DNA from: an uncultured SAR86 cluster bacterium
Lineage (GTDB): Bacteria; Pseudomonadota; Gammaproteobacteria; Magnimaribacterales; D2472
Assembly (NCBI GenBank): GCA_902599315.1
Contig: CACKEY010000003.1
Coordinates: 87,286 to 151,285, forward strand
Length of the DNA: 64,000 nt
Direction: 5' to 3'
Shown here one piece after another: positions 1,378 to 25,977 of the stretch (positions within the stretch are counted from its first letter, which is position 1; the number at the start of each line of letters is the position of its first letter). The notes beneath the pieces were generated by a model. It had not been told where the DNA came from, ran no database searches, and saw only the letters and a list, made by a program, of their open reading frames with translations. The position numbers were made by a program, and so were the translations under genes.

Positions 1378-2655
1378 TTACTTAAATTCTGGGTAAGCCT
1401 CAACTCCGATTTCAGAAGCATCTAGACCAGCTTCTTGCTCAGAATCAGTAGCTCTAATTGGCATGAACATGTTTATTACATAAACAGTTCCAAGGCTAGC
1501 TAAAAAACCAAACCCTGCAATGGATACAACACCAATGAACTGATACAAGAATGATGCATCACCATTAGTGAAAGGTACAACCATACAACCAAATATTCCA
1601 GCAGTTCCGTGAGCTGAAATTGCTCCTACTGGATCATCTACCTTAATGCTGTCAAAGAACAAGATTGAACCATATACAATCAAGCCTCCGATAAACCCTA
1701 TAATTACTGCTTCACCACCAGTTGGCGCACTTGGTCCAGCTGTAATTGCTACCAAGCCAGCAATGGCACCATTTATTACCATGGTTACATCACTTTTACC
1801 TGTCATAAATAGACTGAGTACTAGGGCTCCAAGGACTCCACCGGCTGCAGCCATGTTAGTATTTAAAAATACCTGACTTACTGCAATAGCGCTTGCTTCA
1901 TCACTGATAACAAGCTCTGATCCACCATTAAATCCAAACCAACCTAACCACAGGATAAGAGTACCTAAGGCTGCTAGGGGAATATTTGATCCCGGCATTG
2001 GATTAACAGATCCGTCAAAACCATATTTTCCATTTCTTGGTCCTAGAAGAGTAACAACTCCTAAGGCAGCAGCTGCGCCTAAAAGGTGCACCGTGCCAGA
2101 TCCTGCATAGTCAGAATATCCAAGAGTGCTCAAAAATCCACCACCCCAATTCCAGTATCCTTGAGTAGGGTAGATAAAAGCAGTTAAGACAATTGCAAAT
2201 AGGAAAAACGGTATCAATTTCATTCTTCCAGCAACAGCTCCTGACACAATTGACATTGCGGTAGCAACAAACACAACTTGAAAAAAGAAGTCAGCTTGTT
2301 GTGAGTAATCCATACCATATGCCATACCAATTTCATCGAGAGGCATATCAGTACTTAAGCCCCAGGATGTTCCAATCGCTGGCAAAATACCATATACAAT
2401 TGCTTCACCGGCATCATCTAAGCCACCAGATATTGCGAATACTGCGTCTGATGGGTACATAAGCACAAATCCACACACAAGGTACATGACACATGCTATT
2501 GAAAATAACCCAAGGTTTTTGGTTACAATTTCAGAAACATCTTTTTTCTGAACCAACCCTGCTTCTAGCATGGTAAATCCAGCTGCCATCCACATGACAA
2601 GCGCCCCTGACATAATTGCATAGAACGTATCTAGTGCAAATTTTACTTCATCCAT
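1378..2655 (-). CDS. amt: Ammonium transporter, copy 2
   Basis: Complete 425-residue Amt/Mep/Rh-family channel without a signal peptide. The N-terminus starts directly in the first membrane segment (FYAIMSGALVMWMAAGFTML), continues with AGLVQKKDV, and carries both pore histidines: GSGTVHLLGAAAALG near residue 190 and GAISAHGTAGIFGC near residue 345. It clearly differs from the adjacent amtB, which is exported with a signal peptide. It ends an operon of a TorF-like porin, PII and this transporter, is followed by a strong terminator, and is expected to be induced under nitrogen limitation through the sigma-54 promoter upstream of the porin gene. Confidence 0.96.
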   Translation of the reverse strand: MDEVKFALDTFYAIMSGALVMWMAAGFTMLEAGLVQKKDVSEIVTKNLGLFSIACVMYLVCGFVLMYPSDAVFAISGGLDDAGEAIVYGILPAIGTSWGLSTDMPLDEIGMAYGMDYSQQADFFFQVVFVATAMSIVSGAVAGRMKLIPFFLFAIVLTAFIYPTQGYWNWGGGFLSTLGYSDYAGSGTVHLLGAAAALGVVTLLGPRNGKYGFDGSVNPMPGSNIPLAALGTLILWLGWFGFNGGSELVISDEASAIAVSQVFLNTNMAAAGGVLGALVLSLFMTGKSDVTMVINGAIAGLVAITAGPSAPTGGEAVIIGFIGGLIVYGSILFFDSIKVDDPVGAISAHGTAGIFGCMVVPFTNGDASFLYQFIGVVSIAGFGFLASLGTVYVINMFMPIRATDSEQEAGLDASEIGVEAYPEFK

Positions 2656-2677
2656 AATAATCCTCCTTATTTAATTA

Positions 2678-3022
<345 letters not shown>

Positions 3023-3616
3023 TTATAAACTTGCTGCAATTGAGAAGAAAATACCGTCTTCATCTCCAGTTCCATATCCTTCATCAGTCATGTCATACAT
3101 TGTTAATCCACATTCGTATGAACCACATGCAAAACCATAACTTAGAGTTATATTGTCACTAACATCGTCATAAGTACCATATGATAATGAGACTGGCCCA
3201 ATTCCATATGAAACCTCTGTGTAATCTGGAGCACCATCTTGTCCAGAAGCAAAGAATAAGCCAAGATCACCAAATGAAAGACCGAGATAGATTTCTTCAA
3301 AATCTAGACCTGTCTGATTTTCAGGATAATCGAATGCAATGTAGCCAATGTCTACACCAACGTCACCCACAGAAAAACCGTAACCAGCATAGTAATCTAA
3401 TTCACTACCTGCACCATCATTAAAATTAACATTTGATCCCCATATACCTGCATAGAAACCACCTTCAGCTTCAAAGTCAAAACCACCTTGAATTGCAGGG
3501 CCATCGCTTTGTGTCATACCTCTCCAAACATAATCTGAAGTAAAGGCTACATTAGCGCTAACAGCTGCAAAAGAGGGCATAGCAAGCATGCCAACTAGCA
3601 ATAATAATCTTTTCAT
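3023..3616 (-). CDS. TorF-family putative porin
   Basis: 197-residue outer-membrane beta-barrel candidate of the Gcw_chp/TorF family. It has a clear signal peptide (MKRLLLLVGMLAMPSFAAVSA), then NVAFTSDYVWRGMTQSDG, the signature opening of this family, and alternating aromatic strands such as FYAGIWGSN and ELDYYAGYGF. The family is often found next to glnK-amt genes and is proposed to help small nitrogen compounds cross the outer membrane; that role is inference. It is first in the operon, 39 bp downstream of the sigma-54 core, with an AGGAG ribosome site before its ATG. Confidence 0.85.
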   Translation of the reverse strand: MKRLLLLVGMLAMPSFAAVSANVAFTSDYVWRGMTQSDGPAIQGGFDFEAEGGFYAGIWGSNVNFNDGAGSELDYYAGYGFSVGDVGVDIGYIAFDYPENQTGLDFEEIYLGLSFGDLGLFFASGQDGAPDYTEVSYGIGPVSLSYGTYDDVSDNITLSYGFACGSYECGLTMYDMTDEGYGTGDEDGIFFSIAASL

Positions 3617-14485: not shown

Positions 14486-15391
14486 ATGTCATTTAATTCA
14501 ATTCCAGTCTTTTCAATGCCAGACATTGAAAATCGAAATCAAGAGACCATTGATAGTCTTTATGAGGCGCTAACTACCCACGGATTTTTCACAATAACAG
14601 ATCATGGCATTAAGGATGAGGTTTTAGCTTCTAGCTATAAAGTAAGTAAAGAATTTTTTGATCTTTCTGAAGATATAAAAAATAACTATGCTCACCCTGA
14701 AGTAGCAGGCGCAAGGGGATACACGCCATTTGGAAAAGAAACAGCTGTTGGTGAAAAAACTCCTGATTTAAAAGAATTTTGGCATCATGGCCCAGTCATT
14801 GATGAATCGTTTGATGATAGAGTTCCTAAAAACATATTTGTTTCCGAGCTTGCAGATTTTAATGGCCAATTTGATCTGCTATTCAATCAACTTAATATGC
14901 TTGGAATAAAGGTTTTAAGCGCTATAGCAGTTATCCTAGGCAAGGATCCAGATTTTTTTAATAACTGGGCTTTAAAAGGTAACTCAATATTAAGATTAAT
15001 TCATTATCCACCTATTAATGATAATACAAACATCATGCGAGCAAGAGCTCATGCGGATATAAATTTAATCACTTTATTAGTTGGTGCTGAGGAGTCTGGC
15101 CTTGAAGTTCAACACCCCTCTGGTGGATGGATACCAATTCAGGCAAGGAGTAAATCAATAGTTTGCAATATTGGAGATATGATGCAGTTAGTTACACGTT
15201 CTAAACTAAAAAGCACTAGCCATCGTGTTGTTGATCACAATATTGATAAATCTTCGTCCCGTTATAGCATGCCTTTCTTTCTCCATCCTTCACCTGATAT
15301 AGAACTGTGTTCCATCGTTGATGATTCACCTGAGTCTATAAGCGCTCATGACTTCCTAGAGGAGAGACTCAGAGCAATTAAGCTATACTAA
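14486..15391 (+). CDS. 2-oxoglutarate/Fe(II) dioxygenase, isopenicillin-N-synthase family
   Basis: 301-residue non-haem iron oxygenase. The N-terminal DIOX_N part includes FFTITDHGI, and the double-stranded beta-helix carries the iron triad H189-x-D191 (RAHADINLITLL) and H246 (TSHRVV), with Arg259 in SRYSMPFFLHP to bind 2-oxoglutarate. The family hydroxylates or desaturates small molecules; thymine 7-hydroxylase is one member. The start is 15 bp beyond the terminator hairpin. It is followed 3 bp later by a NupC-type transporter, so the two are probably cotranscribed. A nucleoside or base substrate is only a guess from that neighbour. Confidence 0.88.
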   Translation: MSFNSIPVFSMPDIENRNQETIDSLYEALTTHGFFTITDHGIKDEVLASSYKVSKEFFDLSEDIKNNYAHPEVAGARGYTPFGKETAVGEKTPDLKEFWHHGPVIDESFDDRVPKNIFVSELADFNGQFDLLFNQLNMLGIKVLSAIAVILGKDPDFFNNWALKGNSILRLIHYPPINDNTNIMRARAHADINLITLLVGAEESGLEVQHPSGGWIPIQARSKSIVCNIGDMMQLVTRSKLKSTSHRVVDHNIDKSSSRYSMPFFLHPSPDIELCSIVDDSPESISAHDFLEERLRAIKLY

Positions 15392-25437: not shown

Positions 25438-25977
25438 ATGTTTACAAGAATGGACCAGAGCACTCAAGAAGAGTGGCAGCATATCAGTGAAGAGCACATG
25501 CCCCACATATTTGATATGCCAAAAAGAATTATTTCAATGTTAAAGCAAGCTAAAGAATTAACGCTTGGTTTTGGTACTGATCAATTACATCATGCCTTAC
25601 AAACGGCAACAATGGCAAGAAGAGCTGGAGCTGACGATGAGATGATACTTATTAGTTTAATTCATGATATTGGAAAGGTAATTAATGTGCCAAACCACGG
25701 CCAAATAGCTGCTGAAATGATAAAGCCGTATGTCAGTGAAGATGCATATCACATAATAAGAACTCATCAAGATTTTCAAGGAGAACACTATTATCACTAT
25801 ATGGGTAAACCACAAGATTTACGTAAACAATATGTGAATGAGTCTTGGTATAAAAAAGCAATTGAGTTCACAGATGAATGGGATCAAGCAGCATTTGATC
25901 CTGAGTATAAAACTGATTCTCTAGAATCATTTGTACCCCTGATCAATAAGTTTTTTGCTGCACCTCATACGGTTTAA
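25438..25977 (+). CDS. HD-domain protein resembling PhnZ/MIOX-type diiron oxygenases
   Basis: 179-residue all-helical HD protein. Likely metal ligands are His52 (LHHALQTATMARR), His76-Asp77 (LIHDIGK), His87 (NHGQIAA), His110 (IIRTHQDFQG) and Asp149 (EWDQAAFDPEY). This H...HD...H...H...D set is the mixed-valent diiron site of myo-inositol oxygenase and PhnZ, whereas hydrolytic HD enzymes usually bind fewer ligands. GEHYYHYMG and WDQAAFDP are typical of the PhnZ-like group. PhnZ cleaves the C-P bond of a hydroxyphosphonate made by a PhnY oxygenase; no phnY is in the window, so the substrate is open. No Shine-Dalgarno is visible. Confidence 0.8.
   Translation: MFTRMDQSTQEEWQHISEEHMPHIFDMPKRIISMLKQAKELTLGFGTDQLHHALQTATMARRAGADDEMILISLIHDIGKVINVPNHGQIAAEMIKPYVSEDAYHIIRTHQDFQGEHYYHYMGKPQDLRKQYVNESWYKKAIEFTDEWDQAAFDPEYKTDSLESFVPLINKFFAAPHTV

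Follow-up and report, generated by a model that had tools for sequence, protein, structure and literature searches.

In the window, the whole 64,000-nucleotide stretch of SAR86 DNA that we analysed, the gene at 25438..25977 (+) encodes an HD-domain protein of 179 aa that is probably an oxygenase of the mixed-valent diiron type. It would cleave a non-phosphonate C-X bond and, within clade A of the unnamed HD diiron-oxygenase-like family to which it belongs, would act as a stand-alone enzyme. The open reading frame is real and its translation is as given in the earlier note on this DNA. We infer its metal content, redox state, O2 dependence, oxygenase activity, type of bond and substrate; the bond cut is most likely C-C. 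To our knowledge, the HD diiron oxygenases characterised so far are of just three kinds (MIOX, PhnZ, TmpB and close variants), to which the A/B family would add a fourth that acts on a different substrate.

Distribution of the HD family

The host genome of the window, from an abundant group of marine bacteria, is 1.44 Mb in size and 90% complete. Homologues of the protein at 40–99% identity occur at 59 loci in named genomes, mostly of SAR86, while matches to the family at any similarity were obtained in 73 of 100 SAR86-order relatives and in 62 of 399 Pseudomonadota genomes. The HD protein is the most highly conserved among the proteins of its neighbourhood; for example, it retains 80% identity in loci L026/L028, where its neighbours show 25–71%. 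No NCBIfam model gave the A/B family a score above its cut-off, PHROGs holds no model for the HD protein and our literature search returned nothing on the family.

Metal ligands and a predicted fold nearest to the HD oxygenases

The six ligands that the earlier note had read from the sequence are present at the positions it gave, all on the + strand: H52 (25591..25593), the HD dyad H76-D77 (25663..25668), H87 (25696..25698), H110 (25765..25767) and D149 (25882..25884), the last lying within WDQAAFDP. They align with PhnZ H34, H58-D59 (of which the Asp is bridging), H80, H104 and D161, respectively, and profile-profile alignment (hhalign) against PhnZ-type proteins (99.2%, E 7.7e-20) put all six on the PhnZ diiron ligands. 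None of the six residues varies among 99 dereplicated homologues (23 with K80, 76 with D/E/G80), so the set does not reflect chance. The H-HD-H-H-D arrangement is the ligand set of MIOX, PhnZ and TmpB (PMC8177086), and the earlier note had taken it to exclude hydrolytic HD enzymes. This part of the claim is not supported, as the dinuclear phosphatase YqeK, with two extra His between the HD and the last Asp, also has the set and HD-GYP uses a very similar one (PMC8177086). Since dinuclear hydrolases such as YqeK carry the same ligands, the set is necessary for the assignment but neither sufficient nor diagnostic.

We therefore turn to the fold. The AlphaFold2 model, generated from a 31-sequence alignment for the protein chain alone, has a pLDDT of 94.4. 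In a Foldseek search of the PDB the best match was PhnZ (TM 0.74, E 8e-7), followed by TmpB (TM 0.66–0.70) and MIOX (TM 0.52–0.55); PhnZ and TmpB chains occupied ranks 1–10 and MIOX ranks 11 and 14. These three kinds had Foldseek probabilities of 0.99–1.00, with no other kind of HD protein at high probability, and only PhnZ and TmpB chains reached E <0.001. HD hydrolases gave no significant match in the same search (TM ≤0.47, E >0.2). The sequence profile ranked the PDB in the same order, with PhnZ at 1.5e-11, TmpB at 2.4e-6 and MIOX at 0.04, the first HD protein beyond these appearing at 0.33. The Pfam MIOX model PF05153 scored 26.6 bits against a cut-off of 25; the match covered just 39 of 249 positions and thus did not extend over the full-length MIOX family. 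In phosphohydrolases an Arg precedes the HD His by three residues (PMC8177086), and this Arg is found in 0/58 family members. The fold search on the predicted model, the profile ranking and the missing phosphohydrolase Arg favour the oxygenase branch and support the oxygenase-type assignment made in the earlier note.

It is nevertheless conceivable, at rather long odds, that the protein is a dinuclear HD phosphohydrolase, YqeK-like or another nucleotide or alarmone hydrolase, that shares the ligand set by coincidence. The H-HD-H-H-D set of YqeK (PMC8177086) would allow this, and the stand-alone, highly conserved clade A genes with their varied neighbours would suit a housekeeping hydrolase. 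However, YqeK and HD-GYP resemble the protein in ligand set and not significantly in fold, where PhnZ, TmpB and MIOX lead, and the hydrolase Arg is absent from all family members tested.

The A/B family is separate from PhnZ and TmpB

Judged by its sequence, the 179-aa protein is neither PhnZ nor TmpB and belongs to a separate, unnamed family of two clades. Its scores fall well short of the cut-offs of the three NCBIfam models for phosphonate HD enzymes, TIGR03276 (40.8 bits, cut-off 214.6), NF049941 (29, cut-off 300) and NF052439 (27.4, cut-off 300). The HVxAK, LSxAS and QGG signatures occur in 16/16 PhnZ-type proteins (the PhnZ reference sequence being set to agree with 4mlm) and in 0/58 family members. 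All 16 also have HDxGH, Glu27 and, ahead of the last Asp, a motif that includes an Arg; these features are absent or nearly so in the 58. The site of the PhnZ/TmpB YxxE substrate loop (PMC8177086) is occupied, according to the alignments, by T42-F45 (25561..25572, +), which contains neither Tyr nor Glu; F45 stands at the position of PhnZ E27, which is mostly Tyr/Phe in the family. The absence of the PhnZ-type Tyr and Glu contacts, proposed earlier, is thus borne out. In addition, D146 (25873..25875, +), invariant in 23/23 clade A members, occupies the site at which PhnZ and TmpB have the conserved Arg158.

Other motifs show the reverse distribution. HxxFQ is present in 58/58 family members and 0/16 PhnZ-type proteins, and the DxxxFD-type motif ([WYH]DxxxF[DM]) in 56/58 A/B-family and 0/16 PhnZ-type proteins. 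WDQAAFDP is therefore not typical of the PhnZ-like set, as had been suggested; at the sequence level, WDQxxFDP is a mark of the query's own family and not of PhnZ. The phylogeny agrees: the split between PhnZ-type proteins and the A/B family has a support of 100/100 and a very long branch (its length is taken from a quick tree), with the query on the A/B side. In a careful tree, clade A, which contains the query, has a support of 97/87 and clade B of 80/73. No MIOX relatives to serve as a reference for the tree were found in Pseudomonadota. K80 (25675..25677, +), within HDIGK, defines clade A among the aligned homologues; this position is Lys in clade A, Asp in clade B, His in PhnZ/TmpB and Lys in MIOX. 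Position 49 is Gln in clade A and Arg in clade B.

Compared with the three characterised enzymes, the query shares with PhnZ ((R)-2-amino-1-hydroxyethylphosphonate oxygenase; 4N71/4MLN) the HD fold, the six diiron ligands, the length and the lack of the hydrolase Arg, but PhnZ has YxxE, HVxAK, LSxAS, QGG and Arg158, carries HDxGH in place of the query's HDxGK and is about 22% identical to it. TmpB (6NPA) is alike in fold and ligands, and TmpA-like 2OG genes are neighbours of HD genes in the sister clade B; the query, however, lacks the same phosphonate signatures and scores 29 bits where the curated model requires 300. MIOX (2HUO/2IBN), known to cleave a C-C bond without a 2OG partner, shares the ligands, the HDxGK Lys and the lack of YxxE. 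It differs in its lower structural similarity (TM 0.52–0.55) and its greater length (250–289 residues in the solved chains), and its sequence similarity to the query is confined to the first His and the HD region. With the phosphonate signatures of PhnZ absent from the family, a substrate other than that of PhnZ is probable, as the earlier note had surmised.

Proposed mechanism

By analogy with MIOX, PhnZ and TmpB, D77 would bridge two irons coordinated by the six ligands. In the Fe(II)/Fe(III) form, one iron would bind a small substrate bearing an alpha-hydroxyl group and the other would bind O2, giving a superoxo species. Abstraction of the carbinol hydrogen by this species would lead to cleavage of the C-X bond as a four-electron oxidation. 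K80 may help to position the substrate oxygen, a role played by Lys in MIOX. A dedicated, linked 2OG hydroxylase would apparently not be needed by clade A; many clade B relatives, in contrast, would function in 2OG-oxygenase/HD pairs.

Improbable, too, is the reading that the protein is a lyase, or a redox diiron HD enzyme that oxidises, hydroxylates or opens a ring without cutting a C-X bond. The pocket residues K80, Q114 and D146 are unlike those of all characterised HD oxygenases and HD lyases do exist (PMC8177086), but every known HD oxygenase cuts a C-C or a C-P bond (PMC8177086), as the C-X-cleaving oxygenase that we prefer would do.

Clade A context and the search for a partner

No 2OG oxygenase gene adjoins the query. 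The host genome contains one unlinked PhyH gene (G000 C1:277507-278391), whose product is about 31% identical to the PhyH adjoining a clade A member, and has no TauD/GBBH partner, no TIGR03276 gene at E 1e-12 and no phosphonate-binding protein of the TIGR01098 type. Six relatives, 70–93% complete, have clade A and zero PhyH matches, and this PhyH gene is also present in genomes with clade B only, so we rejected the host PhyH as an obligatory partner. Clade A therefore probably requires no PhyH partner, like MIOX. A true phosphonate enzyme, cleaving the C-P bond of an alpha-hydroxyphosphonate with that PhyH as its unlinked 2OG partner, is highly unlikely: PhnZ is the nearest solved relative and the genome's PhyH does resemble the one beside a clade A member, but the family is without HVxAK, LSxAS and QGG, clade A has Asp in place of the Arg that precedes the last Asp, TIGR01098 is missing from the genome and the six relatives lack any PhyH match.

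Also in the window, at 14486-15391, is a gene for what appears by eye to be a 2OG oxygenase of the isopenicillin-N-synthase type, without an NCBIfam match; it occurs in 71/100 SAR86-order relatives, many of which lack clade A, and was discarded as a partner. The peptidase-like, cysE and cysK neighbours were likewise discarded, their synteny being gone in close relatives. The gene contexts of clade A are varied, being beside cysE in close relatives and next to aminotransferase and alanine-dehydrogenase-like genes in others. At one locus (L042:2725-5796) a class III aminotransferase gene, an alanine-dehydrogenase-like gene and a clade A HD gene follow one another on the same strand. A comparable set, with an additional N-carbamoylputrescine amidase gene, is found in L151 after a clade B HD gene.

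Clade B and 2OG oxygenase gene pairs

Among dereplicated members with enough flank, a 2OG oxygenase gene is the immediate same-strand neighbour in 18/73 of clade B and 2/23 of clade A, both of the latter PhyH. The total of 20/96 compares with 10/1493 non-adjacent ORFs (Fisher p 5.8e-13), a p-value that is optimistic because the neighbouring genes themselves served as seeds for the HMMs and because relatedness makes the members non-independent. Pairing with a 2OG oxygenase speaks for the oxygenase reading of the family, but since clade A occurs in genomes with no PhyH match, this argument does not transfer directly to the query. Six adjacent genes scanned with Pfam encode either TauD with a GBBH-like N-terminus or PhyH, and two of the GBBH-like neighbours gave sub-threshold scores with the models for gamma-butyrobetaine dioxygenase and for TmpA. 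The layout of the clade B 2OG/HD gene pairs resembles that of PhnY/PhnZ and TmpA/TmpB.

At nine clade B loci (L119, L120, L121, L128, L137, L141, L155, L194 and L211) a TmpA/GBBH-like 2OG gene lies directly upstream of the HD gene and often overlaps it; such pairs are candidates for new TmpAB-like systems that lack the phosphonate signatures. In L152 and L156, also of clade B, a PhyH gene upstream and a TauD-like gene downstream lie within about 20 bases of the HD gene. Some clade B members are near proteins resembling choline/betaine-binding proteins, and the clade B HD gene of L226 adjoins a gene whose product scores above the NCBIfam cut-off for carnitine 3-dehydrogenase. The clade B neighbourhoods suggest quaternary-amine chemistry for part of clade B only.

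As a tentative proposal, the A/B family may carry out C-C cleavage of hydroxylated nitrogenous osmolytes or related compounds, with clade B acting after a TmpA/GBBH-like or PhyH hydroxylase and clade A of SAR86 acting on its own, in the manner of MIOX. If this proposal were true, the family would provide a new, widespread route of organic-matter breakdown that tailed phages carry as well. Published estimates of how abundant phnZ is in the sea conflict, ranging from <1% to about 20% of cells (PMC10574752). A testable idea is that PhnZ-like proteins of the A/B family have perhaps been counted in some of these estimates.

Phage copies

Five IMG/VR contigs encode HD-family members with all six ligands. 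One of these, L260, also codes for baseplate-hub and tape-measure proteins and is thus assigned to a tailed phage. The HD gene overlaps the preceding gene in L260, L262 and L263 and is close behind it in L261. The product of this preceding gene has an HxD...H...R pattern and is 2OG-oxygenase-like by eye; Pfam returned no significant match for the L260 and L262 copies, in which the two overlapping genes span 2424-3528 and 2420-3522, respectively. The IMG/VR contig L259 carries, at 1251-1790, a clade A member that is 59% identical to the query, together with genes for a 2OG-Fe(II) oxygenase (PF13640) and MazG.
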